64,000 nucleotides of DNA from an uncultured Alphaproteobacteria bacterium (GTDB lineage: Bacteria > Pseudomonadota > Alphaproteobacteria > HIMB59 > GCA-002718135): the NCBI GenBank assembly GCA_902623585.1, contig CACNUO010000002.1, positions 1 to 64,000 of the forward strand. The letters are read 5' to 3'. A program made the position numbers and the translations under genes. The notes under the pieces were generated by a model. The model ran no database searches, was not told the DNA's origin, and saw nothing but the letters and a program-made list of their open reading frames with translations. The first letter of the stretch is position 1, and each line of letters starts with the position of its first letter. Of this stretch, positions 36,515 through 55,987 are shown piece by piece.

Positions 36515-36528
36515 TTTTGGGAGGAATT

Positions 36529-37464
36529 ATGATTAGTGATGCGCAAATAAAACAATATAACGAAGAAGGTTATACGATCGTTGAAAATGTTTTTAGTATG
36601 GATGATTTAAATCCAATATTAAATGAATTTGAAGAAATTGTTGATGATTTTGCAGAAAAAGCTTTTCAAGCTGGAAAAATTACAAACAAACATGATGATA
36701 AAGATGTCTTTAAAAGACTAGCTGCTCTCGAAAGAGATTTTAAAGGTTCTTCTGTATTAATACATCATAGAGGGGAATTAAAACCAGCTCTTGCAAATCT
36801 TTGGGGATCAAAAAAACTTTTAGATATGGTTGAAAATTGGGTTGGCAAAGATATTTCTGGTCATCCAGTTTGGAATATTAGATCTAAAACACCTCAGACA
36901 GCTAGGATGACAGTTCCATGGCACCAAGACTCTGCTTATTTAAAAGATGGAGCAGAAAAAACCACTCAGCCTGCTGCGTGGATTCCATTTCTAGATGTAA
37001 ATAAAAATAATGGATGCATGCAAGTTGTTCCTGGAGGACATAGACCTGAAAGAGTTTTGAATCATAAATTAGAAAAGAAAGATGGTTCAGTAAAAGATTC
37101 TTGGTATTTATTTATTGAAGACAAAGATATTCCAGAGGAGAAAGTCGTTACTTGTGAAATGAAGGCTGGCTCAGTTCTATTTTTACATCAATTAGTTCCT
37201 CATCGATCACTTGAAAATTTATCTGAGGATGTAAGGTGGAGCGTTGACTTAAGATTTCAAAATCCAAAAGATGAAGCTGGTTTTCACACTGGTTTGGTTG
37301 ATCCAATCATAATGAGAAAATCAGAAGACCCAAGTTATACAGCTGATTGGGACTCTTGGTTTAAAGGTTATGAAGAACAACACACTAAATTTAGAGGGAC
37401 TTCAAAAAAAGACCAATTTGACTCCACAGTTGATGGGTCATGGTTAGATCGTTGGGATAATTAA
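36529..37464 (+). CDS. Phytanoyl-CoA dioxygenase family Fe(II)/2OG oxygenase
   Basis: MTVPWHQDSAYL (HxD), FLHQLVPHRSLENLSEDVRWSVDLRF; ATG at 36529 with GGGAGGA SD. Confidence 0.85.
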   Translation: MISDAQIKQYNEEGYTIVENVFSMDDLNPILNEFEEIVDDFAEKAFQAGKITNKHDDKDVFKRLAALERDFKGSSVLIHHRGELKPALANLWGSKKLLDMVENWVGKDISGHPVWNIRSKTPQTARMTVPWHQDSAYLKDGAEKTTQPAAWIPFLDVNKNNGCMQVVPGGHRPERVLNHKLEKKDGSVKDSWYLFIEDKDIPEEKVVTCEMKAGSVLFLHQLVPHRSLENLSEDVRWSVDLRFQNPKDEAGFHTGLVDPIIMRKSEDPSYTADWDSWFKGYEEQHTKFRGTSKKDQFDSTVDGSWLDRWDN

Positions 37465-37478
37465 TTTAATTATCAAGC

Positions 37479-38462
37479 ATGGAAGTTAATCTCGATGATT
37501 GGTACAGACCAGAAGTCGACAGAAAAAAATTAAAAGCCTTAAGTAAAAGAAGAGATCTACCTGGACTAATCCATTTCTTCTTTTATTTTTTATCTTTATT
37601 TATTTCAGGATATTTAGCATACATTACTTTAGGTACGTGGTGGACATATCTATTCTTTTTTATTTATGGTACGATTTATGCGTTCAGTGTAGCGAACTGG
37701 CATGAAACTGTTCATCGAACTGCATTCAAGACTCGTTGGATAAATGAATTTTTTTATCATATCAGTTCTTTCATGTGTGACTTTGAAGGTTTTAGATGGC
37801 GTTGGAGCCATACTTTCCATCATTCAAAGACATTACAAACAGAAGATGATTATGATCACGAAATACAAGTATCAAGACCGATAGAATTATTTGCATTCTT
37901 TTTGAATTTTATACCTCTTACAGATTTATTATACCCACATAAATTAATTAAGTTTGAAGTTCTAAAACATGCTTTTGGAAAATTCACTCCAGTTATTGAT
38001 ATAACAGCGCCTAAAGAAGAAAAGAAAAAAATTCTTTGGAACTCAAGATTATATGTTTTTATTTGGTTAACAGTTATTGCATATTCTTTTTACTTAGGTT
38101 CTTTCTTACCAATAATTTATATTATTTTACCAACTTATATTGGGAAGCCAATTTGGTTTGCCGTAAATGTGACTCAACACCTAGCTGCTAAAGTTGACAC
38201 AAAAGATCACCGCTTAAGCACTTACTCTGTTAGAATAAATCCAATATTAAGTTTTTTATATTGGCATATGGAATATCATTTAGAGCATCATATGTTTCCT
38301 ATGGTGCCTTCATACAATTTAAAAAAATTACGAAAAGAAATTGATAAAGAATTACCACAACCGTTCACGAGTCTTTTTGATTTTTATAAAAAAGTTTTGC
38401 CAGCTGTTATATCTTTGGCTACTGATCAAAATAAATATTATAAAGTTAAATTAAATAATTAA
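37479..38462 (+). CDS. Membrane fatty-acid desaturase/hydroxylase family protein
   Basis: Histidine boxes HETVH, HTFHH, HLEHH; TM helices. Confidence 0.85.
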   Translation: MEVNLDDWYRPEVDRKKLKALSKRRDLPGLIHFFFYFLSLFISGYLAYITLGTWWTYLFFFIYGTIYAFSVANWHETVHRTAFKTRWINEFFYHISSFMCDFEGFRWRWSHTFHHSKTLQTEDDYDHEIQVSRPIELFAFFLNFIPLTDLLYPHKLIKFEVLKHAFGKFTPVIDITAPKEEKKKILWNSRLYVFIWLTVIAYSFYLGSFLPIIYIILPTYIGKPIWFAVNVTQHLAAKVDTKDHRLSTYSVRINPILSFLYWHMEYHLEHHMFPMVPSYNLKKLRKEIDKELPQPFTSLFDFYKKVLPAVISLATDQNKYYKVKLNN

Positions 38463-38982: not shown

Positions 38983-40515
38983 ATGAAGAAGAAAAAAGAA
39001 TTAAAAATCTCTAGACGTACAGTAATGAAGGGTGCTCTTGCTGCTGGTGCAATGATGTCAGCAGGATCTATTCCTTCAAAACTATTTGCTGGAGAATTTA
39101 ATATTCCTGATCCACTAAAACCATTACCAACAACAGGTGGTAATATGAGATGGATTGATAGTGGTGACATGAAAGGTGTCTTTTGGAAAAAACTTTTTCC
39201 AGAATATGCAGCTTCAAGAGGTATCACTATTGAATATGATGGTTTGCCATGGAAAGAAATAAATAAAATTGTTCCAATAGCTATAAGAAATGGAACTGTT
39301 CATGATGTATTCCAATTACCTTTAGGAATGGATCCAGGTGTTGCTGTATCTGAAGGTTGGGTTCAACCTTGGGATGATTATATTGAAAACCTAGATGAAT
39401 GGTTAGCAAATTTCCCTGCTGGAGTTTATTTACCTGGTGTCAACCAATTCAATGGAAAGACATATGGTTTATGCTTAACAGCTAACAAAAGAACAGGAAC
39501 TTGTCTTCTCTATAGTGAAAAATATATGAGTGAGGCTGGATATGATCCTCAAGCTGGTCGTATGACATATTCTGAAATCAGAGATGCTGCAAAAAAAATT
39601 ACTAAAAGAGGTAATGGTCAGTATTATGGTTGGATTATTGGTGGAAACCAAGTTAATCGATGGGAAGATGTTGTTCACACTTTTGGTCAAGTAGCTGGAG
39701 CACATGGAGGAAGAGGTGGCTTTACAAATAGACACATTAATTTCCAAAATGGTAAATTCCAAATTGCTTCTGATCAATATATGGAAGCAGTTGAATTACT
39801 TCTTCAATTAAAATCTGATGGAAGTGCTTTCCCTGGTGTCATGAGTATGAACGCTCCTCAAGCTAGAGCTCTTATGCCTCAAGGTGCAGCAGGAATGATA
39901 TTCCAAGGTCCTTGGTGTATTGGAGTTTGGGGTAGAGATGCTCCGGAGTGGAAATACGGTATTGCTAGTGAGCCTGTTCCAGATGGAAAAAAAGCTCAAC
40001 CACTTTATATTGCAGAGGGTGGGTCAAATACGCTTTGGTTAAGTGCTAATAGTACAATGGGACCATTTGCTGGTGACCTAATTAGATTCATGGGAACTGA
40101 GCAAGGTCAAATTTATTGGGCACAAACTGTTGGTGCAGCAGATCCTGCTGTTAATCCAGAAGCAGTTGCAAAAGCTGGTTTGACTGGACCATCAGCTCAA
40201 GCACTTGCAATGTTTGCTGAAAATCTACTTGTTGGACCAAATCCAATAGTTAGAAATAAAGATGTAGGTGTTGTAGCTGCTAAGTCTAGAGTTCCAGACC
40301 CATCTTTAGCTTTAGTTATTCAAGGGCTATATACTGGACAACTTAAAGGTGTCGAAGCACAGCTTAAAGATTGTAATCAGAGATATGAAGATGCGCTTGA
40401 TCAAGCAGTTGAAGCAGCAAGAGCAGATGGTGCTAACGTTACTCGTGATGATTGGGTGTTCCCAAATTGGGATATCAACTCCAATTATGGCGCGTCAAAA
40501 TATAGCGAACTTTAA
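38983..40515 (+). CDS. ABC transporter substrate-binding protein family 1, Tat-type signal
   Basis: KISRRTVMKGALAAGAMMSAG twin-arginine signal; extracellular solute-binding fold; followed by two MalFG-type permeases. Confidence 0.85.
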   Translation: MKKKKELKISRRTVMKGALAAGAMMSAGSIPSKLFAGEFNIPDPLKPLPTTGGNMRWIDSGDMKGVFWKKLFPEYAASRGITIEYDGLPWKEINKIVPIAIRNGTVHDVFQLPLGMDPGVAVSEGWVQPWDDYIENLDEWLANFPAGVYLPGVNQFNGKTYGLCLTANKRTGTCLLYSEKYMSEAGYDPQAGRMTYSEIRDAAKKITKRGNGQYYGWIIGGNQVNRWEDVVHTFGQVAGAHGGRGGFTNRHINFQNGKFQIASDQYMEAVELLLQLKSDGSAFPGVMSMNAPQARALMPQGAAGMIFQGPWCIGVWGRDAPEWKYGIASEPVPDGKKAQPLYIAEGGSNTLWLSANSTMGPFAGDLIRFMGTEQGQIYWAQTVGAADPAVNPEAVAKAGLTGPSAQALAMFAENLLVGPNPIVRNKDVGVVAAKSRVPDPSLALVIQGLYTGQLKGVEAQLKDCNQRYEDALDQAVEAARADGANVTRDDWVFPNWDINSNYGASKYSEL

Positions 40516-40528
40516 TACAAATTAACTA

Positions 40529-40553
40529 AAGGCGAGTTTATACTCGCCTTTTT
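40529..40553 (+). terminator. Hairpin/T-tract between SBP and permease genes
   Basis: AAGGCGAGT-TTAT-ACTCGCCTT then TTT; four bases before the ATG at 40557. Confidence 0.9.
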
Positions 40554-40556
40554 ATC

Positions 40557-41471
40557 ATGAATAAAAAATCTTTATCCAAACAGATATACGATGCGAGATG
40601 GTGTTATGTATTTGTTCTACCATGTTTAATTTTAACAGGAATGTTTGTCATTTATCCTATTGGAATGTCTTGGTATTTTTCTTTATTAGATTGGAGTGGT
40701 TTTACAAAAGAAGCAAAATTTATTGGCCTTCAAAATTATTATGAAGCTGTCAATGATGAATTCTTTTGGGATGCATTCATTCGTTCTTTTATTTTTATGT
40801 TTGGAACAGTTCCAGTAAAAATTGTTTTAGGATTTATAATTGCAGTATTTTTAAATAATCAAGTTTTGAAACTTGCTCCTTTCTTTCGTACTGTAATCTT
40901 TATGCCTGTAGTTACTGCAATTGCTATCATTGGTATTGTAATGACTTTTGTATTTAGCCCTTTTAATGGACCTGCTAATAAATTTTTAATGTCTACTAAT
41001 TTAACTTCTGCTCCAATTGATTTTCTTGGAAACCCAGATACGGTGCTTCCAACTGTAATGGGAGTATATGTTTGGAAATGGCTAGGGATAACTATGATGT
41101 ATTGGCTTGCCGCTTTACAAACAGTCCCACAAGATGTTTACGATGCTGCAAAAATTGATGGTGCTGAAGGATATAGATTATGGATCCATATTATTTTACC
41201 AATTGTACTACCTTTTGCTATTGTCATTATTCTTGTGGAGGCAGTTGGAGCACTAAATGTTTTTCCTTTAATTGAAACTATGACTGCTGGAGGACCATTC
41301 TTTAGTAGTGAAGTTATGGAAATATATATTTTTAGAACAGCTTTTGTAACTGACTCTGGCACAATGCCTAGGCTTGGATACGCTTGTGCTGCAGGAGTAT
41401 TTTGGGGTGTTGCAGTTTTATTTATTACAGTACTTCAGGGATTATGGATGAGGAGAACTCGAAGAATATGA
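40557..41471 (+). CDS. Sugar ABC transporter permease (MalF/UgpA-like, CUT1)
   Basis: EAA-type motif DVYDAAKIDGAEGYRLWIHIILPIVLP. Confidence 0.9.
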   Translation: MNKKSLSKQIYDARWCYVFVLPCLILTGMFVIYPIGMSWYFSLLDWSGFTKEAKFIGLQNYYEAVNDEFFWDAFIRSFIFMFGTVPVKIVLGFIIAVFLNNQVLKLAPFFRTVIFMPVVTAIAIIGIVMTFVFSPFNGPANKFLMSTNLTSAPIDFLGNPDTVLPTVMGVYVWKWLGITMMYWLAALQTVPQDVYDAAKIDGAEGYRLWIHIILPIVLPFAIVIILVEAVGALNVFPLIETMTAGGPFFSSEVMEIYIFRTAFVTDSGTMPRLGYACAAGVFWGVAVLFITVLQGLWMRRTRRI

Positions 41472-42319
41472 GCAGATACTTAAATTTTATTGCTGAAAAA
41501 AACCAAGTTAAATATTTAATTATAACTATAGCTTTTATTATTTTCTCTTTCTTTTGGATCTATCCATTACTGTGGGTACTTTCAGCCTCTTTCAAAACTG
41601 ATTTTGAAATTTGGGGAGGCTTAGGTTTAATCCCTGACCGGCTTGTTTGGGAAAATTTTGAAAGAGCATGGTTTGGTGCAAATATGGGTAGGTATTTTTT
41701 TAACACCCTTATTATCACAGTTGTTTCGGTAATTATAGTTGTCGTAACAACTGGTATGTTTGGTTACGTAATTGGAAGATATTCTTTTCCAGGAAAAAAA
41801 ATACTTATAGGAATTTTAATTAGTACAATTTTTATTCCTCAAGGTTACACAATTATTCCTGTTTTTGATTTATTAAATAATTTAAATATTTCTAAAAACT
41901 TAATTGGACTAACACTCGCAACAGCAGGACACACTCCAGTAATTTATATTTTATTGTTTGCAGGATATTTTTCGAGAGTTCCTGTAGAGCTTGAAGAAGC
42001 AGCTAAAATGGATGGAGCGGGCTTTGTTCGAACATTTATTTCAATCATGTTACCTTTAACAAAACCAGTAGTAGCTACAGTTTCTATTCTACAAGTTTTG
42101 CATGCATGGAATGACTTCTTGTTACCAGTTGTCATCACATTAGGTAATCCTGATATACGAACACTATCCGTAGGCGTGTACGCTTTTAAAGGTGAGTACT
42201 TTGTCGATTGGTCTGGTATGGCAGCTGCATCTGTTATAACTATTTTGCCTATAATTATTTTATTTTTGTTTATGCAAAAATATTTTGTTGAAGGTGTTCA
42301 AGGAGCTGTAAAAGGGTAA
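41468..42319 (+). CDS. Sugar ABC transporter permease (MalG/UgpE-like, CUT1)
   Basis: ELEEAAKMDGAGFVRTFISIMLPLTKP; ATGA overlap with upstream permease, so the ORF-track start at 41384 is too early. Confidence 0.9.
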   Translation: MSRYLNFIAEKNQVKYLIITIAFIIFSFFWIYPLLWVLSASFKTDFEIWGGLGLIPDRLVWENFERAWFGANMGRYFFNTLIITVVSVIIVVVTTGMFGYVIGRYSFPGKKILIGILISTIFIPQGYTIIPVFDLLNNLNISKNLIGLTLATAGHTPVIYILLFAGYFSRVPVELEEAAKMDGAGFVRTFISIMLPLTKPVVATVSILQVLHAWNDFLLPVVITLGNPDIRTLSVGVYAFKGEYFVDWSGMAAASVITILPIIILFLFMQKYFVEGVQGAVKG

Positions 42320-42321
42320 AT

Positions 42322-43863
42322 ATGAAAAGGCCAAATATTTTATTAATTACTTCCGATCAACAGCATCATGATACTATTGGAAAATTTAATTCAAAAATAC
42401 AAACACCGTATTTAGATAAGCTTTGTGATGAGGGTATGAATTTTACAAGAGCTTATTGTCCATCACCAGTTTGCACGCCGTCAAGAGCAAGTATTATTAC
42501 TGGACAATATCCGTCTTCTCATGGAGCTTGGACAATTGGAGTTAAATTAGATGAAGAAGTAGAAACTATTGGAGAACTTTTATACAAAAATGGTTACTCT
42601 ACTGGTTTAATTGGTAAAGCACATTTCCAGCCATTAACTTCAGTTCCAGGTCAGGAATCTATAGAAGGACAACCAACTTTAAGAGATTTAGAATTTTGGA
42701 AAAATTTTAAAGGACCTTGGTATGGCTTTGAACATATTGAGCTAGCACGTAATCATGCAGATGAAAGTCATGTAGGTCAACATTATGCAATTTGGATGGA
42801 ACAAAACGGTCTTAGTGATTGGAAAGAATATTTTCAACCAGTGCCTGGTGAAACTTCTAAATATGCTCCTCCAATTGCTCGCGAATATGACTACTGGGCA
42901 AGACCGGATAGGGTTTGGAAGTTAGATGAAAAACATCACTACACAAATTGGACAGCTGAAAGATCAATTGAATTTTTAGATCAACAAAAAGATGACAAGC
43001 CATTTTTTCTTTGGACAAGCTTTCAGGATCCACATCCACCATACGTATTAAGTGAACCATGGGCATCAATGTATAATCCAGAAGACATGTCACCTGGAAC
43101 GTTAAAAGAAGGTGAACACGAATTAAATCCACCACATTTTGGAAAAACACAAACGACAAATCCTGATTTTGACAATTGGCATTCACCATTTAACGCTCAT
43201 GGTTGCATGAGTCATCTGTATCCTATGGAAGAATTAAAAAAAGACATGGCAATTTATTATGGCATGGTTAGTTTTATGGATAAGAATATTGGAAAAATAA
43301 TTAATAAGTTAGATCAAATGGGTGAACTTGATAATACCATAATTATTTTTACTACTGATCATGGTCACTTTATAGGACAGCATGGTTTAATTGCTAAAGG
43401 ACCATTCCACTATGAAGATATGCTCCGTTTACCATTTATTGTTAGATGGCCAGATAAAGTTCCTCAAAATTCATCATCTTCATCTTTATTGAGTTTAGTT
43501 GATCTTGCGCCAACATTTTTAAAAGTCGCGGGCATTGATATACCAACCCAAATGCAAGGAGTGGATCAAACGGATGTATTTTATGGCAACAAGGAAAGTA
43601 TCCGTTCACATATATTTGTTGAAAACAGACATAATCCAAGAATGCCTCATTTAAAAACTTATATTAATGATAATTATAAAATTTCTATTTACCGAGAAGC
43701 TAACTATGGTGAACTTTTTGATTTAGAAAATGATCCAAACGAATATAATAATTTATGGGATAATACGAACGCACAAACATTAAAAAAAGATTTATTATTC
43801 AAGTTTGCGCAAGCCACGTTAAAAGATGAAACATCAAAAATGAAAAGAGTTTCAGGCGCTTAA
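42322..43863 (+). CDS. Sulfatase-superfamily hydrolase (Cys-type CTPSR)
   Basis: NILLITSDQQ, CPSPVCTPSRASIITGQYP, TTDHGHFIGQHGLIAKGP; no signal peptide. Confidence 0.9.
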   Translation: MKRPNILLITSDQQHHDTIGKFNSKIQTPYLDKLCDEGMNFTRAYCPSPVCTPSRASIITGQYPSSHGAWTIGVKLDEEVETIGELLYKNGYSTGLIGKAHFQPLTSVPGQESIEGQPTLRDLEFWKNFKGPWYGFEHIELARNHADESHVGQHYAIWMEQNGLSDWKEYFQPVPGETSKYAPPIAREYDYWARPDRVWKLDEKHHYTNWTAERSIEFLDQQKDDKPFFLWTSFQDPHPPYVLSEPWASMYNPEDMSPGTLKEGEHELNPPHFGKTQTTNPDFDNWHSPFNAHGCMSHLYPMEELKKDMAIYYGMVSFMDKNIGKIINKLDQMGELDNTIIIFTTDHGHFIGQHGLIAKGPFHYEDMLRLPFIVRWPDKVPQNSSSSSLLSLVDLAPTFLKVAGIDIPTQMQGVDQTDVFYGNKESIRSHIFVENRHNPRMPHLKTYINDNYKISIYREANYGELFDLENDPNEYNNLWDNTNAQTLKKDLLFKFAQATLKDETSKMKRVSGA

Positions 43864-43879
43864 TTAAGAAAGGATAAAG

Positions 43880-45379
43880 ATGAGAATTTTATACGTAGAC
43901 ATAGACTCTTTGAGGCCTGATCATTTAGGATGTTATGGTTATCATAGAAACACATCTCCTACGATTGATTCAATAGCAAAAGAAGGGGTCAAGTTTACAA
44001 ATTTTTATTCAACTGACACACCGTGCCTACCTAGCAGAACTGCTTTGTTTGGAGGTAATTTTGGTTTCAAAACTGGAGTTGTTAATCATGGCGGTGAATT
44101 CTCTGATATTGCTCCTAGAAAAAATATTTGGAATAGAGAATTTAAAGGCGGTTTGAGAGGAGAATACGCTTTTACATCTCTTGGAAAAGTTCTTCGAGAT
44201 GCAGGATATTATACAGCAAGTATCAGTCCTTTCCCTGAAAGACATACTGCCTATCAAGTTTGGTTTGGTTTTACCGAAACATATGACACTGGAAAAGGTG
44301 GATTAGAAAATGCTGATGAAGTCTACCCTGTTATAAAAAAATGGTTAGAAAATAATGGAGAAAAAGAAAATTGGTTCTTACATGTAAATATGTGGGACCC
44401 TCATACTCCATATGATACTCCTGAAGAATTTGGAAATCCATTTAAAGATGATCCTATCGAAGAATGGGTAACAGAAGAATTAATTAAAAAACAAAGGAAT
44501 AGTTTCGGACCGCATAGCGCTAGAGAAGTTCCAGGATTTGATGAAGATCTTGGAGGAAAGTATACAATGGGAGTGGGTGAAATTAAAAATACTTCTGATG
44601 CTAAAGAACAAATTGATGCATATGATACTGGAATTAAATACGCAGATTTTTATTTAAATGAAGTTTTTGAAGATTTAAAAAAAATGAATCTTTGGGATGA
44701 TACAGCAATAATTATTTCAGCAGACCACGGAGAAAATCAAGGTGAGTTAAATGTTTGGGGAGATCACCAAACAGCTGATCATATAACTAATAGAGTTCCA
44801 TTAATAATTAGATGGCCAGGGATAACAGATACAAATAAAGGAAGTACTGTAGAAAATAAATTTTATAATTTAGATTTAACTTCAACTATTTCTCAAATTA
44901 CTTCATCTTCTCAACCTGACAGATGGGATGGTATTAATTTCACTGAAAATTTAACTAATAGTAAATCATCAAATGGAAGAGATTATTTAGTTATTAGTCA
45001 TGGTGCTTGGAGTTGTCAAAGATCTGTAAGATGGGATAATTGGTTACTGATAAGAACGTACGATACTGGTTTAAAAGATTTTCCAAAATATATGCTTTTT
45101 GATATTGAAAAGGATCCGCATGAGTTGAATAATCTCGCAGATCAGCATAAAGATCTCGTAGCTCATGGAATGTTTTTAATCGATGAGTGGATTGAAGAAA
45201 ATATGTATGAGGCTGATAGAGGAGATCCACTTCAAGGTGTAATTAGAGAAGGTGGTCCTCATCATGCAAATATTTATTCAAAAGTCTGGAATACATATGT
45301 TGAGCGTCTTGAAAAAACAGATAGAAAAAAACACGCTGACAATCTTAGGAAATATAAAGGAAAACCTTTTAGTAAATAA
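43880..45379 (+). CDS. Sulfatase-superfamily hydrolase (CLPSR)
   Basis: ILYVDIDSLRPDHLGCYGY, TPCLPSRTALFGG, ISADHGENQGE; no signal peptide. Confidence 0.9.
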   Translation: MRILYVDIDSLRPDHLGCYGYHRNTSPTIDSIAKEGVKFTNFYSTDTPCLPSRTALFGGNFGFKTGVVNHGGEFSDIAPRKNIWNREFKGGLRGEYAFTSLGKVLRDAGYYTASISPFPERHTAYQVWFGFTETYDTGKGGLENADEVYPVIKKWLENNGEKENWFLHVNMWDPHTPYDTPEEFGNPFKDDPIEEWVTEELIKKQRNSFGPHSAREVPGFDEDLGGKYTMGVGEIKNTSDAKEQIDAYDTGIKYADFYLNEVFEDLKKMNLWDDTAIIISADHGENQGELNVWGDHQTADHITNRVPLIIRWPGITDTNKGSTVENKFYNLDLTSTISQITSSSQPDRWDGINFTENLTNSKSSNGRDYLVISHGAWSCQRSVRWDNWLLIRTYDTGLKDFPKYMLFDIEKDPHELNNLADQHKDLVAHGMFLIDEWIEENMYEADRGDPLQGVIREGGPHHANIYSKVWNTYVERLEKTDRKKHADNLRKYKGKPFSK

Positions 45380-45391
45380 ATCTAAATCATA

Positions 45392-46759
45392 ATGAATATT
45401 AAATCTAAACCAAATATTATTGTATTTTTTACTGATCAACAACGCTGGGATACTTCTGGTTTACATGGTAATCCATTATCCTTGATGGAGAACTTCGATC
45501 ATTATGCAGTCGAAGGTACACATCTTTATAACTCATTTACATGCCAACCAGTTTGTGGGCCTGCAAGAGCTTCATTACAATCAGGAATGTATGCAACAAA
45601 AACTGGATGTTTTAAAAATAGAATACCTTTAAAAAAAAATATTAAAACTCTAGCAAAACATTTATCAAAAGAAGGTTATGCAACTGGATATATTGGAAAA
45701 TGGCATCTCGGCTCATCTGAACCGGTTAAAAAAGAGGATAGAGGTGGTTATGATTATTGGTTAGGATCAAATCTATTAGAATTTACTTCTGATGCTTATG
45801 AAACATATGTTTATGATGGACAAAATAAAAAAGTATTTCTTCCAGGATATAGAGTTGATGCAATAACTGATGCAGCTATAAATTTTATAAAACTAAATCA
45901 AAAAAAACCATTTTTTCTTTTCGTCTCTCTTATTGAGCCACATCACCAAAACAATACAGATGATTATCCACCACCTATTGGATACAGAGAAAAATATACA
46001 GGCAAGTGGTCTCCTCCAGATCTTTCATCTCTGGTTGGATCTTCTCCTCGACATTTAGGAGGTTATTATGGAATGGTGAAGAGAATAGATGAAGCTTATG
46101 GAAGAATGATTGATGTTATTAAAAGCTTAAAATTATTTGATGATAGTGCAATTATTTTTACATCAGATCATGGAAATAATTTTAAAACACGAAATAGAGA
46201 ATATAAACGTTCATGTCATGAAAGTTCAATACGGGTTCCTACTTCTTTAATTGGAAATGTTTTCCAACAAGGTGGCCGAATAAAAGAACTAACCAATATA
46301 TTAGATATTCATGCAACAATATTAGATTTGGCAAAAGTAAAAAATACCTCTCATTGTGATGGTAGTTCAGTATTGCCCTTAGTAAATAAAACATCAAAAA
46401 AATGGGAAAACGAAATTTTTGTTCAAATTAGTGAGAGTCAATTAGCTAGAAGTTTAAGAACTGAAAAATGGAAATATTGTATTGCTGATCAAGACTCTAA
46501 TGGGAGTGATAAACCTTCATCTAATCAATACACAGAAACAAATTTATACGATCTTGATGCTGATCCGTATGAATTAAATAACTTAATTGGTATTAGTACT
46601 TATGATGAAATAGTAACCTCCTTGAGAAAAAAGATTAAAAGTAAAATTAAAAAAGTTGAAAATATAACAACTAAAATTACAAAAGCTAAAAATGTAAATA
46701 ATCCTGGTCAAATGGGATTAAATCCTGATTCTTTTCATAGATTAAAGAAAAAACTTTAA
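45392..46759 (+). CDS. Sulfatase-superfamily hydrolase (CGPAR)
   Basis: NIIVFFTDQQRWDTSG, CQPVCGPARASLQSGMY, GKWHLG, FTSDHGNN; no signal peptide. Confidence 0.9.
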   Translation: MNIKSKPNIIVFFTDQQRWDTSGLHGNPLSLMENFDHYAVEGTHLYNSFTCQPVCGPARASLQSGMYATKTGCFKNRIPLKKNIKTLAKHLSKEGYATGYIGKWHLGSSEPVKKEDRGGYDYWLGSNLLEFTSDAYETYVYDGQNKKVFLPGYRVDAITDAAINFIKLNQKKPFFLFVSLIEPHHQNNTDDYPPPIGYREKYTGKWSPPDLSSLVGSSPRHLGGYYGMVKRIDEAYGRMIDVIKSLKLFDDSAIIFTSDHGNNFKTRNREYKRSCHESSIRVPTSLIGNVFQQGGRIKELTNILDIHATILDLAKVKNTSHCDGSSVLPLVNKTSKKWENEIFVQISESQLARSLRTEKWKYCIADQDSNGSDKPSSNQYTETNLYDLDADPYELNNLIGISTYDEIVTSLRKKIKSKIKKVENITTKITKAKNVNNPGQMGLNPDSFHRLKKKL

Positions 46760-46790
46760 TAATTATTTTTTTCGTATTAGTCTGGTATTT

Positions 46791-48302
46791 ATGAAAACAG
46801 TTTTTCTTTTATTTGATTCATTAAATAAAAGAATGTTAAATTCTTATGGTGGTAAATATATTGAAACACCAAATTTTAACCGATTAGCAAAAAAATCAGT
46901 TCAATTTAATAATCATTATATTGGTAGTATGCCCTGTATGCCGGCAAGACGTGATATGCATTCAGGTCGATTAAGTTTTCTTCACCGTGCATGGGGTCCT
47001 TTAGAACCATTTGATAATTCATTTCCAGAAATCTTAAGACTTAATAATACATATACTCATCTTGTGACTGATCATTATCATTACTTCGAAGATGGTGGTG
47101 CAACGTATCATAATAGATTTAACTCATGGGATTTTATTAGAGGACAAGAGAGTGACCCGTGGAAAGCAATGGTTCAACCACCACTTGAAAAATTAAGAGA
47201 AAAATATCATCAATCACAATTAAATTTAACTGATAGAGAAACAGGTTATTATCATTACGCAATCAATAGTGAATTTATTAAAGAAGAAAAAGATTTTCCT
47301 TCAGTTAAATGTTTTGAATCTGGTTTAGACTTTATAAATATTAATAAAGATTCTGATAATTGGTTTCTTCAACTCGAAACTTTTGATCCTCACGAACCTT
47401 TTTTTGCGCCAGAGCGATTTAGAGAAAAACTAAAAACAAATTATACTGGCCCAAGATTAGATTGGCCTCAGTATGATAGAGTGAAAGAAACAGATGATGA
47501 GGTTGCAGAGTTAAAAGCCAATTACATTGCTTTAGTTGGTCTATGTGATTATTTACTTGGTACGGTTTTAGATTATTTTGATGAAAATAATTTATGGAAT
47601 GACACTGCATTGATTTTAACTACAGATCATGGTTTCATGCTTGGAGAACATGATTGGTGGGCTAAAAATAGAATGCCTTTGTATAATGAAATTGCAAATA
47701 TACCTTTTTATTTTTATCACCCGGAATACAAACAATATTCGGGTGAGCAAAGAAATGTTGTAACTCAAAATATTGATTTGATGCCAACATTCATGACAAT
47801 GCATGGTCACAATCTTCCTAAAGAGGTTAAAGGTAAATCTATATTAAACTTTCTAGATAAAGACAGTGAAAATAAGCATTTTGCTTTGTATGGATATTGG
47901 GGTGGGGGAATAAATATATCCGATGGAAATTATACATATTTTCATTTTCCAGAAAATTTTGATCAATATGATAGAAGTAGATTTCAATATACATTGATGC
48001 CAACCAATATGAGGCAATTTTTTTCACATGAAGAGTTGCAAACTGCTACAATGCATGAGCCATTTAACTTTACTAAAAATATTCCAGTAATGAAAGTTAA
48101 TAGAATTCTTAGAAAATCAGATCCACATAAAGCATTAGAAGATACTAAATGTGCTCTTTATAATTTAAAGGATGATCCTGGACAATTAAATCCTATTAAT
48201 GATGAAAATTTAATAAATAAATATAAAAATCTTATGCTGAATGAAATTAAAACTTATGATCCACCAAAGGAATTATTAAACAATTATTTTAAAGAAAACT
48301 AA
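46791..48302 (+). CDS. Sulfatase-superfamily hydrolase (CMPAR)
   Basis: VFLLFDSLNKRMLNSYGG, GSMPCMPARRDMHSGR, TTDHGFMLGEHDWWAKN; no signal peptide. Confidence 0.9.
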   Translation: MKTVFLLFDSLNKRMLNSYGGKYIETPNFNRLAKKSVQFNNHYIGSMPCMPARRDMHSGRLSFLHRAWGPLEPFDNSFPEILRLNNTYTHLVTDHYHYFEDGGATYHNRFNSWDFIRGQESDPWKAMVQPPLEKLREKYHQSQLNLTDRETGYYHYAINSEFIKEEKDFPSVKCFESGLDFININKDSDNWFLQLETFDPHEPFFAPERFREKLKTNYTGPRLDWPQYDRVKETDDEVAELKANYIALVGLCDYLLGTVLDYFDENNLWNDTALILTTDHGFMLGEHDWWAKNRMPLYNEIANIPFYFYHPEYKQYSGEQRNVVTQNIDLMPTFMTMHGHNLPKEVKGKSILNFLDKDSENKHFALYGYWGGGINISDGNYTYFHFPENFDQYDRSRFQYTLMPTNMRQFFSHEELQTATMHEPFNFTKNIPVMKVNRILRKSDPHKALEDTKCALYNLKDDPGQLNPINDENLINKYKNLMLNEIKTYDPPKELLNNYFKEN

Positions 48303-48581
48303 ATGACCAAAAGACAAAAAGTTTTAGTTCTTTATTTGAAGTTTCCGAGTCTAGAAGCTGAAGTTATTTCATGGGCTACTTTTGATGGTACTGGTCAAAA
48401 ACTCCATATGACAGGTGATAGTGATGAGCCTCCTTATCCTACAGGCCTCGACGCCTTATTAGATGGATGGAGATTATTTCAATCAAGTCAAGCCATTCCA
48501 GAGCATCCAGGAGAAGAATTTAGGACTTCATATTTAAAACATGAATTTTTTTTTGAAAAAATAGAAGAAGGAGATTTTTAA
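48303..48581 (+). CDS. 92-aa conserved-looking protein of unknown function
   Basis: ORF starts immediately after sulfatase stop and ends 1 nt before PhyH start; balanced globular composition; no family recognised. Confidence 0.7.
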   Translation: MTKRQKVLVLYLKFPSLEAEVISWATFDGTGQKLHMTGDSDEPPYPTGLDALLDGWRLFQSSQAIPEHPGEEFRTSYLKHEFFFEKIEEGDF

Positions 48582-48582
48582 G

Positions 48583-49503
48583 ATGGTACAATTATTATCA
48601 ACTGAGCAAATGGCAGAGTTTGCAAATAGCGGATGCTTATTTTTTGATGGATTAATAGATAATGAAACTAATAAAGAATTTTTAAACGATATTGGACATA
48701 CTGAAATTGAAAACGTTGATAATATGCAAAAGTATTTTCAAAATATTAAAGCTTCTAGCAGCATTCCAAGAATTCCTGCAGGAACACCACTCAAGAATGC
48801 TTATCCACACAAATCTCCCTTAGAAAAAATTTTCCAAAATGAGGTTGTTGCAGGAGCAATTAATAGTTTAGTTGGATCTGAGGCTGTAGTTGATCATCAA
48901 TTTCTTCATCTAACATTCCCAACGAAATACTTTAAAAAAACTAATCAAAGACAGATGTCTCAGGTTAATCATCAAGACAGCACAATCGATCCAAGAATTA
49001 CATTTGATATTCAACTATTCTATTTTCCAACTGATGTTACAAAAGAAATGGGTGGAACAAGATATCACCCTGGTACGCATCTTAGAATTGTAAACGAAAT
49101 GGGAATTGCTAAATATCAAAATATTAAAGGACAAAAAAAAATAGTTTGTAAGGCAGGTACAATTGGGATCTTTCATAATGGCTTGTGGCATGGTGCAGGT
49201 GTTAATTTTTCAGATGAGATTAGATACATGTTCAAAGTAAGATTGCAACCAACAGAAAAACAGGAACTATTATGGGATCCTGAAAAAAAATATAAACCAC
49301 TTCCTAATAAAGCATTATATTGGACAGATGAAAATCAAGAAAAAACAGTCAATGATATTTTAATGAAATCATATCCTTGGCAAGAGGCAGATACAAATCG
49401 ATTAGATAAAATTAATACAATTAAGTTCTGGAGAATGCTCACTGGTAATAAAAATTTAGATATTGATTATTGGCTTACTAGAATTGAGAATGAATTATAT
49501 TAG
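48583..49503 (+). CDS. Phytanoyl-CoA dioxygenase-like Fe(II)/2OG oxygenase
   Basis: SQVNHQDSTID (HxD), MGGTRYHPGTHLRIV, GLWHGAGVNFSDEIRYMFKVRLQ. Confidence 0.82.
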   Translation: MVQLLSTEQMAEFANSGCLFFDGLIDNETNKEFLNDIGHTEIENVDNMQKYFQNIKASSSIPRIPAGTPLKNAYPHKSPLEKIFQNEVVAGAINSLVGSEAVVDHQFLHLTFPTKYFKKTNQRQMSQVNHQDSTIDPRITFDIQLFYFPTDVTKEMGGTRYHPGTHLRIVNEMGIAKYQNIKGQKKIVCKAGTIGIFHNGLWHGAGVNFSDEIRYMFKVRLQPTEKQELLWDPEKKYKPLPNKALYWTDENQEKTVNDILMKSYPWQEADTNRLDKINTIKFWRMLTGNKNLDIDYWLTRIENELY

Positions 49504-51002
49504 TTAAAATCTCTTTCATCACCTTTTAAGGGAACAACATCACAAGTTTCTTGATACCAGGAAAGCATTTTATCTTTTAGATCTTTGAGTTGTGACGCAT
49601 ATTGTGGATCATCAATAACATTATTAATTTCTCCTGGATCTTCGATTAAATTATAAAACTCATCTTTTTCGTAAGCTCTTTTAATATATTTAAATTTTTT
49701 ATTTCTGCACATTGTTGCTTTGGTATGCATTAAAATTTCATCCTCTTGACCTTGTAAACTAACTCTAGGGTAATACAGGCCATGGGGTAATTGAAGACTT
49801 TGATTTTCACTCGCTTGTCTCTCTAACCTAAGTCTACCACCCTCCGTAAATACTTCTTCTCTATGATTATCAGTTTTCTGTTCAATAAAATTTTTAATAC
49901 TTTTGCCAAAATGCCAATATGACGGCTCGATATTACTGTAATCATATATGGTTCCCGCAATATCAATTAATTCAATCATTGTATCGCTTACACCATTTAA
50001 TGTATTTTCACTTTTTGGTGGTTTAATAATTAGAGGAACATTCGTAAGACAGTCTTGAAAAGTATTTTGTGTTTTTTCAACTAAATTATAATCACCTGTA
50101 AAGTCACCATGGTCAGATAAAAAAATTATCAAAGTATCATCATACAAATTATTTTCTTTTAGTTGATTGACCAAAAGTCCAAATTGATAATCTACTCTTG
50201 CACACATACCAAGATATACAGCTCGTAATTCATTCCAACGTTCATCGGTCCAATCTTGCATTCTTTGTCCATCCATAATTCCTTTTAATAGACTTGGTTT
50301 GTCTTCCCAAGTTTTGTATTGATATCTACTTGGTATTAAACTTCGATCAATTGATGAGAACCATGGATCTTCTACACAGTAAGGAGGATGCGGATAACCA
50401 AGTGGTAGAAATAAACAGAATGGTTTTTCTTGTTTATAATCTTTTATAAAATCTAATGCGCCATAAACCATGGACCAATCATCATCGAAATAAATTTCTT
50501 TATCTTTTTTATCTAATTTTCCCTTGAAGAAACTATAATAATTATCTCCATCTTCAGGTCCTCGCCATGATAAATCTCCACCATGAGTACCAGGTTGTTG
50601 ACTGTAACCCCATTTTTGAAAATCTCTATTAGTTGGTTCAAAGTAAATATCACAATGATTACGATATCCTTCCTGACCTGCTATCAAATCATTTTTTCCA
50701 CCCCACCAAATGAAGTAATCTTTATTTTTTAGTTCTGATAAAATACTGGAGTCACCTTGATCTGTATGTAACATATAATGCATTGTTCTATGACCATGTA
50801 CATGTGGATACCAGCCAGTCATAAATGAGCAACGACTTGGTGTACAAACTGTTGCTTGACAAAAAGCATTCTTAAATGCAACCCCGTCTTCTTTAATTAT
50901 ACTATCTAAATTAGGAGTTTGTGCGCCTGGATAACCAAGATATCCAAGCATATCTCCTCTCCACTGATCAGGATTAAAAATAACAATATTAGGTTTCTTC
51001 AT
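49500..51002 (-). CDS. Sulfatase-superfamily hydrolase (CTPSR)
   Basis: NIVIFNPDQWRGDMLGYLGYP, CQATVCTPSRCSFMTGWYPHVHGHRT, LSDHGDFTGDYNLVEK; no signal peptide. Confidence 0.9.
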   Translation of the reverse strand: MKKPNIVIFNPDQWRGDMLGYLGYPGAQTPNLDSIIKEDGVAFKNAFCQATVCTPSRCSFMTGWYPHVHGHRTMHYMLHTDQGDSSILSELKNKDYFIWWGGKNDLIAGQEGYRNHCDIYFEPTNRDFQKWGYSQQPGTHGGDLSWRGPEDGDNYYSFFKGKLDKKDKEIYFDDDWSMVYGALDFIKDYKQEKPFCLFLPLGYPHPPYCVEDPWFSSIDRSLIPSRYQYKTWEDKPSLLKGIMDGQRMQDWTDERWNELRAVYLGMCARVDYQFGLLVNQLKENNLYDDTLIIFLSDHGDFTGDYNLVEKTQNTFQDCLTNVPLIIKPPKSENTLNGVSDTMIELIDIAGTIYDYSNIEPSYWHFGKSIKNFIEQKTDNHREEVFTEGGRLRLERQASENQSLQLPHGLYYPRVSLQGQEDEILMHTKATMCRNKKFKYIKRAYEKDEFYNLIEDPGEINNVIDDPQYASQLKDLKDKMLSWYQETCDVVPLKGDERDFN

Positions 51003-51101: not shown

Positions 51102-52355
51102 ATGATGAAGAATTTATTTAAATTTATCATAGGTTCAGTATCTTTATTTTTCTTTTCTTCTGTTCAAGCAGATACAATTAAATGGTTACACTTAACTGGT
51201 GAAAGCTCACCTGAGTATCCAAACTTTGTAAGAGCTGTTGAAGAATTTGAAGCTAAAACTGGGCACAAAGTTGAGATGATGTATCTCGAAAATGAATCAT
51301 TTAAAGCTAAACTTCCAACAATGTTACAATCAGATGACAGACCAGATATTTTTAATAGCTGGGGAGGTGGAGTAATGTATGCACAAGCTGAAGCAGGATT
51401 TTTAAGAGATATATCTGATGTTATCACTGATGAATATTTATCTACACTAAGTGCAGCTGCAGCAAATGCATTTGTATACAAAGGACAAAGAGTAGGAGTT
51501 CCAAGAAATGTTTCACAAGTCACGTGGTGGTATAACAAAGATTTAGTTAACCAAGCTGGTGTTGATGTTAATGGTATCAAAATGTGGGACGATCTTCTTT
51601 CAGCAGTAAAACAAATTAAATCTGCTGGCATAACTCCAATTTGTATTGGAGGAAAAGATAAATGGCCTGTTCATTTTATTTGGACACATTTACACATTAG
51701 AAATGGTGGCGAGTCATTATTCCTTGAATCACTCGAAAATGGTGGTTGGGATAGACCAGAGTACATTAAATCAGGTGAACAAATGTTAGAACTTGTAGCC
51801 CTAGAACCTTTTCAAGATGGTTGGTTAAGTCATACTTGGCCTGATCAAGCTGGTTTCTTTGGTGATGGAAAATGTGCAATGGCTTTCATGGGTAATTGGA
51901 TGTATCCAGCTCAAAAATCTAACAGTGCAAGTGGAGAAGGTTTAGGAGACGACAATATGGGTATCTTTAGTATGCCAATGACTCCAGGAGCCCTTGGTGA
52001 CTCTGCTGATACTTTAGGAGGTATCAATGGATGGCTAGTTTCTAAAACTGCACCAGACTCAGCTGTAGAATTTTTAATGCACTTAGTTTCAGCAGACATT
52101 CAAAATGAAGATGCTGCCAAAGGTGCTTATCTTCCAGTTGTAAAAGGTGCAGATAAATCAATTACCAATCCTTTACTTGCTCAAGTTGCAAACAACATTG
52201 GAAACTCACAATATCATCAAATTTTCTATGACCAATTTTTAGGTCCAGATATTGGCAGAGTTGTAAATGATGTTTCTACTGATTTAGCTGCAGGAATTAT
52301 TTCAGCAGAAGAAGCAGCACAACTTGTCCAAGAGTCTTGGGAATTTAATCAGTAA
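51102..52355 (+). CDS. ABC transporter substrate-binding protein family 1 (Sec signal)
   Basis: Signal peptide FKFIIGSVSLFFFSSVQA; EEFEAKTGHKVEMMYL; followed by CUT1 permeases; AGGAGGA SD. Confidence 0.9.
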   Translation: MMKNLFKFIIGSVSLFFFSSVQADTIKWLHLTGESSPEYPNFVRAVEEFEAKTGHKVEMMYLENESFKAKLPTMLQSDDRPDIFNSWGGGVMYAQAEAGFLRDISDVITDEYLSTLSAAAANAFVYKGQRVGVPRNVSQVTWWYNKDLVNQAGVDVNGIKMWDDLLSAVKQIKSAGITPICIGGKDKWPVHFIWTHLHIRNGGESLFLESLENGGWDRPEYIKSGEQMLELVALEPFQDGWLSHTWPDQAGFFGDGKCAMAFMGNWMYPAQKSNSASGEGLGDDNMGIFSMPMTPGALGDSADTLGGINGWLVSKTAPDSAVEFLMHLVSADIQNEDAAKGAYLPVVKGADKSITNPLLAQVANNIGNSQYHQIFYDQFLGPDIGRVVNDVSTDLAAGIISAEEAAQLVQESWEFNQ

Positions 52356-52404: not shown

Positions 52405-53289
52405 ATGCAATCACCTAAATTTAATGCTTTATTAAGTAAGTATTCCACTTTGGTAATATTTATTATTCCTGCATTAACTATTTTTACAATGTTTGTTGTC
52501 TTGCCAATAATAGAGGCAGCATATTACAGTTTCTATAGATGGGATGGATATGGTGATCCTAATAAATATGTTGGTTTAAAAAACTATAAATATCTTTTTA
52601 AAAATAAGACATTTATTCTTTCATTAAAAAATAATTTTTACATTATTGCTATTTCATTATTTCTCCAATTGCCTTTCGCATTATTGGTTGCATTAATGAT
52701 TTCAGATAAAATAAGAGGAGCAAATTTTTTTAGAACTGTTTTTTTCTTACCATATATCTTAGCAGAAATAGTAACAGGATTAATTTGGGCATATATTTAT
52801 GATGGTAACTACGGAATGGTTGCTGCAATTTGGAATTTCTTTGGAGCAGAACCACCTCATATGATTGCTGAAAAAGAAACTGCAATGATTGCTCTATATA
52901 TTGTAATTTTTTGGAAATACTTTGGAATTCATATGATGATTTATATTGCGGGTCTTCAAAATATTTCTAAAGAAGTTTTAGAGGCAGCTAGAGTTGATGG
53001 TGCTGGTCCAGTAACTACTGCGTGGAGAATAAAAATACCAATCATTTTACCTACAATAAGATTATCAGTTTTTTTATCTATTCTAGGAGCTCTACAATTA
53101 TTTGATATAATTATGCCACTTACAGGTGGAGGGCCATCAAATCAAACTCATTCAATGGTTACATATTTATATTATTTTGGAGTCATGCGAATGAAATTTG
53201 GTTTTGGTAGTGCAATCGGAGTTGTCATTTTCTTAATTTGTTTCACTATAGCTCTTACTTATCAAAGAACTTTAATGAGGAAGGATTAA
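52405..53289 (+). CDS. Sugar ABC transporter permease (CUT1, MalF-like)
   Basis: EVLEAARVDGAGPVTTAWRIKIPIILPTI. Confidence 0.9.
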   Translation: MQSPKFNALLSKYSTLVIFIIPALTIFTMFVVLPIIEAAYYSFYRWDGYGDPNKYVGLKNYKYLFKNKTFILSLKNNFYIIAISLFLQLPFALLVALMISDKIRGANFFRTVFFLPYILAEIVTGLIWAYIYDGNYGMVAAIWNFFGAEPPHMIAEKETAMIALYIVIFWKYFGIHMMIYIAGLQNISKEVLEAARVDGAGPVTTAWRIKIPIILPTIRLSVFLSILGALQLFDIIMPLTGGGPSNQTHSMVTYLYYFGVMRMKFGFGSAIGVVIFLICFTIALTYQRTLMRKD

Positions 53290-54113
53290 TGTTTAGTAAC
53301 TTTAGATCTTATTACATGTATCTGTTCCTTTTTTTATTGGCAGGTATTATTTTCATTCCTTTATATGTTTCTATTGCTGGTGGTTTCAAAACAATTGGAG
53401 ATTTAAGAACTAATTCACTTGGTTTACCAACAGAATGGATAGTATCAAATTACACAAGTTTACTTGTTGATAACAAGTTTTGGTTATTTACTTGGAATTC
53501 AGTATTATATGCAGCAGGAACAACCTTTTTAGTTATTCTATTAGCTTCAATGACAGCATTTGTATTTGCTCATATGAAATTTATTGGAAGTAGATTTTTA
53601 TTTAATTATTTTATACTTGGTTTAACTTTCCCTTTTGCCACAGCAATTCTTCCTTTGTTTTTGAGAGTTAGAGACCTTGGTTTGCTAGGCTCAGTTTGGG
53701 CAGTTATCTTACCTCAAATTGCATTTGGCTTAGCATTTGCAATAATATTATTTAGAGGATTTTTTAGACAAATGCCATCTGAGTTATTTGATGCTGCATT
53801 TGTTGATGGGTGTACATATTCTCAATTTTATTTTAGGTTTACACTGCCTCTTTCAACACCAATTATAGCAACAGTTGCAGTAATTAATCTTGTTGGTAGT
53901 TGGAATAATTATTTACTACCTCTTATAATGATAAATAGTGAAAGTTTGTACTCATGGCCACTTGGGATAATGGTTTTTAGAGGTGAGTATATTACTGATT
54001 GGCCAAAGATACTTGCTTTTGTCTCTCTTACTTTAATTCCAGCTGTAGTTTTTTTCTTAGCACTTCAAAGATTTATTGTAGCCGGTCTCACAGGTGGAGC
54101 AGTTAAGGAATAG
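53289..54113 (+). CDS. Sugar ABC transporter permease (CUT1, MalG-like)
   Basis: ELFDAAFVDGCTYSQFYFRFTLPLSTPI; ATG at 53289 overlaps previous stop. Confidence 0.9.
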   Translation: MFSNFRSYYMYLFLFLLAGIIFIPLYVSIAGGFKTIGDLRTNSLGLPTEWIVSNYTSLLVDNKFWLFTWNSVLYAAGTTFLVILLASMTAFVFAHMKFIGSRFLFNYFILGLTFPFATAILPLFLRVRDLGLLGSVWAVILPQIAFGLAFAIILFRGFFRQMPSELFDAAFVDGCTYSQFYFRFTLPLSTPIIATVAVINLVGSWNNYLLPLIMINSESLYSWPLGIMVFRGEYITDWPKILAFVSLTLIPAVVFFLALQRFIVAGLTGGAVKE

Positions 54114-54117
54114 TTTT

Positions 54118-55263
54118 ATGAAAGTAGGAATTATAGGTTGTGGAAATATTGCCGATATTTATTTCAGTAATTCTCAGAAATACTTTAATAATTTTCAAAT
54201 TGTTGCATGTGCTGATATTAAAAACGAAGCTGCAAAAAACTATGCAGAAAAATATGGAGTAGAACAATTATCAGTAGATCAGATATTATCTAATAAAGAA
54301 ATTGAGTTAATTATAAACTTAACAATACCAGATGTTCATTTTGAAGTTTCAAAATCAATTCTTGAAGCTGGAAAACATTCTTATTCAGAAAAACCACTCT
54401 CAATAAAGTTTGAACATGGTGAAGAGGTAGTTAAATTAGGAAATTCAAAAGGTTTACATGTTGGCTGTGCTCCAGATACATTTCTTGGCGCTGGTATACA
54501 GGAAGCAAAAAAAATTATTAATCAAAATGAAATAGGTAAAATAAATCTTGGTAGTATTTCAATGGGTGTAGCTGGACATGAAATTTGGCATCCAAATCCA
54601 GATTTTTATTACAAATATGGTGGTGGTCCAATTCTTGATATGGGTCCATACTATTTTACAGCACTAGTAAATTTACTTGGTCCTGCAAAAAATGTTTTTA
54701 CACAATCAAGAACAGTTTATCAAAAAAGAGTTATTGGTAGTGGCGATAGACAAGGGCAAGAAATAGAAGTTGAAATCCCAACAACATTAGTTTCACAAAT
54801 AGAATTTCAGAATGGTGCATTAATTGATTCATTTTTTTCTTTTGATATTTGGAAACATAGTAAAAATCATATTGAGTTATATGGTGATAAAGGGTCAATA
54901 AATATTCCTGATCCAAATATGTTTGGTGGTGATATTCTTGTTTGTAAATCAAAAAACGGACCTTGGGAAAATATTGATACCAAGAACAATAATCTTGGAA
55001 AAATAAATATTAAAAATAAATCTGAAAAAGCAAATGAGTCAGCGGGTATTGCTAACTATAGAGGTATTGGCGTGAGCGAAACAGTTGATGCAATAAAAAA
55101 TAATCGTTTAAATAGATGTAGTGGAGAATTAAGTCTTCACGTTTTAGATATACTAGATAGTATTATTAAATCATCAAAAGAAAATAAAAAAATAGAACTT
55201 AGAAGTTCTATTAAAAATTTAAATTACTTCTCTGAAGATGAGATTAGTAATTTATTAAAGTGA
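54118..55263 (+). CDS. Gfo/Idh/MocA family oxidoreductase
   Basis: VGIIGCGNIADIYF, HSYSEKPLSIKF; ATG at 54118; paralogue of 32510..33661. Confidence 0.88.
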   Translation: MKVGIIGCGNIADIYFSNSQKYFNNFQIVACADIKNEAAKNYAEKYGVEQLSVDQILSNKEIELIINLTIPDVHFEVSKSILEAGKHSYSEKPLSIKFEHGEEVVKLGNSKGLHVGCAPDTFLGAGIQEAKKIINQNEIGKINLGSISMGVAGHEIWHPNPDFYYKYGGGPILDMGPYYFTALVNLLGPAKNVFTQSRTVYQKRVIGSGDRQGQEIEVEIPTTLVSQIEFQNGALIDSFFSFDIWKHSKNHIELYGDKGSINIPDPNMFGGDILVCKSKNGPWENIDTKNNNLGKINIKNKSEKANESAGIANYRGIGVSETVDAIKNNRLNRCSGELSLHVLDILDSIIKSSKENKKIELRSSIKNLNYFSEDEISNLLK

Positions 55264-55273
55264 AAGGAATAAA

Positions 55274-55987
55274 ATGAAAAAAGCTTTAATAGTTTATGGA
55301 GGTTGGCCTGGACATGAGCCAGAAAAATGTACTGAAATAATTAAAGGCATGCTGGAGCCTGAAGGATATGAGGTAAGAGCAGAATATCAAACTTCTGCAT
55401 TTGCAGAAGACTATGTTCACGAAATGGATCTGCTTATTCCAATAGTGACGATGGCCTTTCATTTTGATCCAAGAGGAGAAATAAAAAAAACCGCTGTTAA
55501 TAATGTTATTAAAGCTGTTCATAATGGATGTGGTCTTGCTGGTCATCACGGTGGAATGTGTGATGCATTTAGACAATCAATTGATTGGCAGTTCTTAACA
55601 GGAGGTCAATGGGTAAGTCACCCAAATGGTATTCATGATTATAAAGTCAATATAACAAAAAAAGATGATCCAATCATGGAAGGCATTGAAGATTTTGATT
55701 ATCATTCAGAGCAATATTACATGCATGTGGATCCATTAAATGAAGTTTTAGCAACGACGACATTTAAAGGTAACGAAGTTTGGAAGCTTGAACAAGAACC
55801 TGGTTCATCAAGTGGTGACGCATATACCACAGAATGGTTAAAGGGTGTAGAAATGCCAGTTGCCTGGAAAAGACGAATTGGGAAAGGAAAAATTTTTTAT
55901 ATTTCTCTTGGTCATTTTGCTCATGAATTAAACCATCCACAAATGAATAAAATTTATAAACGTGGTTTACTTTGGGCATCAAGATAG
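55274..55987 (+). CDS. thuA: ThuA-like protein
   Basis: ALIVYGGWPGHEPEKC, GCGLAGHHGGMCDAFR, GKGKIFYISLGHFAHEL. Confidence 0.85.
   Translation: MKKALIVYGGWPGHEPEKCTEIIKGMLEPEGYEVRAEYQTSAFAEDYVHEMDLLIPIVTMAFHFDPRGEIKKTAVNNVIKAVHNGCGLAGHHGGMCDAFRQSIDWQFLTGGQWVSHPNGIHDYKVNITKKDDPIMEGIEDFDYHSEQYYMHVDPLNEVLATTTFKGNEVWKLEQEPGSSSGDAYTTEWLKGVEMPVAWKRRIGKGKIFYISLGHFAHELNHPQMNKIYKRGLLWASR

Follow-up and report, generated by a model that had tools for sequence, protein, structure and literature searches.

Sulfatases of the C-x-P-[SA]-R type are thought to depend on either the formylglycine-generating enzyme (FGE) or the anaerobic sulfatase-maturating enzyme (anSME). Type-I enzymes of SulfAtlas family S1, such as BT1918 (S1_46, PDB 7oz8) and Bt3731 (S1_30A, 9ihk), carry this motif on a common fold, and a similar fold is found in choline sulfatase (S. 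meliloti COS, PDB 6fny/6g5z) and in the phosphonate monoester hydrolases (PMH) RlPMH (2vqr) and BcPMH (2w8s), where Asp ... Asp-His metal ligands stand together with formylglycine (PMC9063841). A third maturation route has already been inferred in E. coli, likewise for Cys-type sulfatases whose maturation involves neither FGE nor a known anSME (Benjdia 2007, as cited in PMC6189696). Here we analyze a window of 64,000 nucleotides (contig CACNUO010000002.1, positions 1 to 64,000) from a single-cell genome of the HIMB59/AEGEAN-169 lineage, which makes up several percent of the cells in oligotrophic surface water (PMC11366302), and describe five genes for Cys-type sulfatase-superfamily enzymes (S1 to S5, 42322-51002) that stand directly downstream of sugar-type ATP-binding cassette (ABC) transporter genes. 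This abundant lineage keeps five or six such enzymes under strong selection, and at the sensitivity used we found neither of the two known maturases in it. Whereas the E. coli system is known from recombinant sulfatases, the HIMB59 case would concern a wild lineage and sulfatases that are native to it and conserved. Copies of S1 that are 96-100% identical occur in genomes labelled uncultured Alphaproteobacteria and in one labelled Pelagibacteraceae bacterium AG-337-I02; we assign them to the HIMB59/AEGEAN-169 group by genome type, gene content and published work on such genomes. An isolate of the HIMB59 type, LSUCC0245, is available (PMC10308909). Genomes of one AEGEAN-169 clade are described as holding two to eight sulfatases each in a study whose main text mentions neither formylglycine, FGE nor maturation (PMC11366302).

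A preliminary description of the locus had taken the conversion of cysteine to formylglycine as available, an assumption that our results do not support, as the search for FGE and anSME was negative in the window's own genome. We extended the search to 110 HIMB59-family genomes, mostly incomplete assemblies, using a loose first look before scoring that very diverged maturases could escape. Sulfatases are present in 85 of the 110, and the cassette in 33 (counted by hand from the sulfatase match lists), 15 of which are at least 80% complete. No anSME match exceeded the cut-off in any of the 110 genomes, and 43 weak TIGR03942 matches were rejected as anSME, the best of them reaching 75 bits where the cut-off is 349. 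FGE-domain matches occur in 17 of the 110 genomes, and canonical FGE was absent among the matches read: all eight HIMB59 FGE-fold proteins read from these 17 genomes lack the catalytic cysteine pair (GGSxxCxxxxC, C-x4-C). These proteins were rejected as the cassette maturase, because only two of the 33 cassette genomes (G024 and G061) contain any FGE-domain match and those read have no cysteine pair.

A canonical FGE or anSME could have been overlooked through assembly gaps, extreme divergence or confinement of the gene to part of the population, and the incompleteness of most assemblies and the reading of eight of the 17 FGE-fold proteins leave this explanation some room. We nevertheless consider it improbable, since 31 of the 33 cassette genomes are without an FGE-domain match, and the chance that incompleteness would hide a core gene in all 33 is ~10^-23 if losses are independent. 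In addition, a 96% complete HIMB59 genome (G079), of which all but ~770 bases of sequence were covered, contains six Cys-type enzymes and no FGE-like open reading frame (ORF) at E<1 with filters off. Its four ORFs of >200 amino acids with a C-x3-C-x2-C motif include none that is anSME-like, and by motif context they look like MiaB/MtaB-type proteins, LipA and MoaA. A canonical FGE query at E up to 10 likewise found nothing in 15 HIMB59 genomes, yet it detected fragments of ~40-70 residues in other genomes.

In Roseibium/Labrenzia (L056, L058-L060) the transporter-S1 order is the same, S1 is ~59% identical to the HIMB59 protein, and the S1 stop codon is followed after 1-4 nucleotides by the start of an FGE with the cysteine pair, indicating that S1 orthologues elsewhere are made together with FGE; HIMB59, in contrast, has S2-S4 at that place and no FGE. 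Of the 30 genomes outside HIMB59 that encode S1, 23 gave an FGE-domain match, the best match carrying the canonical pair in 17 and not in six; the other seven comprise three in which anSME exceeds its cut-off, one with a partial anSME, and three more, two of which contain short pieces of FGE. Near-complete genomes sampled across the class include 22 from outside HIMB59 with a good S1-like match (E of 1e-40 or below); an FGE-domain match, counted regardless of cysteine pairs, accompanies it in 20. Short FGE pieces, one of them containing an in-frame stop, lie at G115 C4:71705-71914 and G125 C2:50327-50449; both alphaproteobacteria keep S1 and gave no full FGE or anSME match.

Separately from the cassette, a seventh Cys-type sulfatase (CSPSRAAIATG) is followed directly 3′ by an FGE-fold protein in the HIMB59 loci L002 (106-2100), L006 and L007, and this protein has a His-rich stretch, AHDHWH, at the place of the catalytic cysteine pair. 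The gene order and the histidine replacement would fit a new maturase type, a reading we regard as highly improbable: since 31 of the 33 cassette genomes have no FGE-fold protein, this protein cannot serve the cassette, and loss of the catalytic cysteines has been taken as loss of sulfatase activation (PMC5915273).

The cassette and its flanks comprise the following features.

38983..40515, + strand: SBP1, sugar-type ABC solute-binding protein with a TAT-like signal (PF01547, PF13416, TAT_signal PF10518; synteny)
40557..41471, + strand: permA, ABC permease (PF00528; syntenic)
41468..42319, + strand: permB, ABC permease (PF00528; syntenic; a longer ORF from TTG 41384 is possible, the frame from 41468 was used)
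42322..43863, + strand: S1, Cys-type sulfatase (DQ, CTPSR, GKAHF, DHGH; PF00884, 188.6 bits)
43880..45379, + strand: S2, Cys-type sulfatase-superfamily enzyme (DS, CLPSR, no K-x-H; PF00884, 137.6 bits)
45392..46759, + strand: S3, Cys-type sulfatase (DQ, CGPAR, GKWHL; PF00884, 161.1 bits)
46791..48302, + strand: S4, Cys-type sulfatase-superfamily enzyme (DS, CMPAR, TDHYH; PF00884, 99.6 bits)
48303..48582, + strand: small ORF, 92 amino acids (from sequence; no Pfam match)
48583..49503, + strand: PhyH-family (Fe/2-oxoglutarate-type) dioxygenase gene (PF05721; absent beside the sulfatases in some HIMB59 genomes)
49500..51002, - strand: S5, Cys-type sulfatase-superfamily enzyme (DQ, CTPSR, GKND; PF00884, 119.9 bits)
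51102..52355, + strand: SBP2, second sugar-type solute-binding protein (PF01547)
52405..54113, + strand: permC and permD, two putative permeases of a second ABC system (ORFs, named by position and similarity to other permeases)
54094..55987, + strand: Gfo/Idh/MocA oxidoreductase and ThuA-family gene (PF01408, PF06283)

The five type-I genes are present as the preliminary description had proposed, with the same motifs (CTPSR, CLPSR, CGPAR, CMPAR and CTPSR) and a cysteine that is invariant in every HIMB59 copy read. All five exceed the PF00884 cut-off of 25 bits (99.6-188.6 bits) and are therefore not chance ORFs, and none reaches an NCBIfam equivalog cut-off, which places them at a distance from named enzymes: the best scores, both from S1, are 197.7 bits against a cut-off of 433 for choline sulfatase (TIGR03417) and 190.6 bits against 900 for the phosphonate monoester hydrolase PehA (NF045661). 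The metal site also reads as first described, with D-Q in S1, S3 and S5, D-S in S2 and S4, and a D-H second site throughout, resembling the ligands of COS and PMH; the window enzymes differ from these in falling far under the corresponding NCBIfam cut-offs and in having a binding-protein-dependent ABC system of the sugar type among their neighboring genes. By alignment, the K-x-H pair that corresponds to Lys102/His104 of COS (PMC9063841) is kept in S1 and S3, reads K-x-D in S5, and is missing from S2 and S4. S1 and S3 share this pair with BT1918 and Bt3731, from which the window enzymes are set apart by a low identity in the alignment (~24-26%), the lack of a signal peptide, the D-Q/D-S ... 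D-H site and a genome in which no known maturase was found. Because each active-site pattern is constant within its own orthologue group and nearly unchanged outside HIMB59, S1-S5 probably represent five different activities and not recent duplicates.

An earlier caution that some of these enzymes may not be sulfatases is fair. That several of S1-S5 are phosphodiesterases or phosphonate monoester hydrolases would fit the D-Q/D-S metal site, the missing K-x-H pair in S2, S4 and S5, and Foldseek matches of the S1 model that include the R. leguminosarum and Burkholderia PMH. S1 and S3 nonetheless keep K-x-H, S5 keeps the lysine alone, and none of the five reaches the PehA cut-off, so that we regard this alternative as unlikely, though compatible with our favored explanation for part of the set. 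The predicted S1 structure (pLDDT 90.3) is about as close to gut carbohydrate sulfatases as to phosphonate monoester hydrolases, and the substrate class is thus not readable from the model; the S2 prediction (pLDDT 51.7) is too poor for use. A sixth sulfatase-superfamily gene lies elsewhere, in L090 (G000 C7:12592-13689) and at G079 C2:298093-299634 (CGPSR in G079); it has GYTDT at the K-x-H place, adjoins an oligopeptide-type ABC transporter in G079 and is possibly PMH-like.

By their substitution patterns, S1-S5 are working genes on which purifying selection is strong. Across HIMB59 genomes, the median dN/dS is 0.027 for S1, 0.040 for S2, 0.039 for S3, 0.037 for S4 and 0.048 for S5, values as low as those of the permeases, which argues that the enzymes are not decaying after a maturase loss. 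The main rival explanation is that they work with an unmodified cysteine, or with a metal-activated water that this residue holds, at lower speed, and that HIMB59 never makes formylglycine. Recombinant S. meliloti choline sulfatase without formylglycine is a multiple-turnover enzyme (kcat 0.27 per s with choline sulfate as substrate), activity has also been reported for Burkholderia PMH in unmodified form (PMC6189696), and slow enzymes could be enough for a slow-growing oligotroph. Formylglycine is expected to lift kcat 5 to 2500 fold, however (PMC6189696), and all HIMB59 copies read preserve the full C-x-P-[SA]-R motif, just as FGE-bearing relatives do, where drift would be expected without FGE; we judge this explanation somewhat unlikely. 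Median synonymous divergence within HIMB59 is 0.24-0.28 for S1-S3 (42322-46759) and 0.78-0.97 for the transporter genes (38983-42319), a roughly threefold difference that may reflect recent recombination or a sweep, although the compared pairs differ between genes.

The sulfatases and the transporter form a conserved unit. The order SBP1-permA-permB-S1-S2-S3-S4 is retained in 34 HIMB59 loci as far as the contigs extend, usually with S5 next, and SBP1-permA-permB-S1 stand in this order in 12 non-HIMB59 loci (Trueperaceae, Granulosicoccus, Rhodobacterales, Roseibium and others), Tropicimonas being among the syntenic relatives; in three further non-HIMB59 loci the four genes lie near one another. 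That this arrangement is shared between phyla is the strongest indication that the cassette genes function together. The Trueperaceae locus L041 reads S4-S3-S5-LacI-SBP1-permA-permB-GH4-S1-S2, and the family-4 glycosidase between permB and S1 suggests a sulfated glycoside as substrate. Outside HIMB59, S1 has 46 orthologues (the 45 listed at 54-68% identity), S2 has orthologues in Trueperaceae, Rhizobiales and others, S3 and S5 in L041 and L068, and S4 in Roseibium/Labrenzia and L041. The cassette is without an ATPase gene, and several MalK-type ATPases are encoded elsewhere in G079.

Consistent with the original prediction, none of S1-S5 has an export signal. There is no ATG, GTG or TTG within the 10, 4, 2, 15 and 30 in-frame residues before the ATGs of S1-S5, respectively, which excludes an overlooked signal peptide for the usual start codons. 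SBP1 has a weak TAT_signal match just below the cut-off and SBP2 a hydrophobic N-terminus, so the contrast between solute-binding proteins with export signals and signal-less sulfatases is real. Together with the ABC cassette directly upstream, syntenic with S1 in the 12 non-HIMB59 loci, these data support the proposed cytosolic location and import of intact substrate.

We favor, with somewhat more confidence than doubt, an import-then-desulfate module whose formylglycine probably comes from a maturase of a kind yet to be identified. SBP1, permA and permB, with an ATPase shared from elsewhere, would import a small, probably multiply sulfated glycoside. In the cytosol, S1-S5 would then cleave its sulfate esters, or perhaps phosphate esters in the case of some of the enzymes. 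The enzymes would use an alkaline-phosphatase-superfamily mechanism with formylglycine derived from the C-x-P-[SA]-R cysteine, and, neither FGE nor anSME having been found, this residue would probably be made by a maturation enzyme of a third kind. The import-coupled desulfation module and its cytosolic location are very probable; that the HIMB59 Cys-type sulfatases are matured by a formylglycine-forming enzyme other than FGE and anSME is a more tentative proposal, for which we see nearly balanced prospects.

Several points weigh against this explanation. Absence by homology search is not proof of gene absence, we found no candidate third maturase, and no cassette gene is both always present and of unknown function. 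The substrate remains predicted as a class only, and unmodified choline sulfatase turns over, if slowly, so that the modification may be dispensable (PMC6189696). Two genomes of the class-wide sample (G178 and G186) also have sulfatases and neither maturase; sulfatases without a known maturase are uncommon outside HIMB59 and not unique to it. Bearing on sulfur acquisition as the purpose of the module, a PAPS-reductase-type domain is present in three of eight HIMB59 genomes tested and absent in five. The favored explanation suggests that HIMB59 brings sulfated sugars into the cell intact and removes the sulfate there, with products that are not shared, and the question of a third maturation system becomes concrete in a genome of only about 1.6 Mb: if the explanation is true, HIMB59 is a small-genome native host in which such a system could be found by subtraction.

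The small ORF and the PhyH-family gene between S4 and S5 add to the preliminary description. The PhyH-family gene (48583-49503) was rejected as a candidate maturase, as it was not found there in L010 and L030, both of which span the interval. This 3′ side of the cassette (window 48302-51002) is variable: in L011, L018, L019, L021 and L031, S4 is separated from PhyH/S5 by a different ABC system. Upstream of the transporter, at window 36517-38462, a PhyH-type gene is followed by a fatty-acid-desaturase-like gene, and this pair recurs at G079 C2:148020-149825, where it is flanked by two family-4 glycosidase genes.

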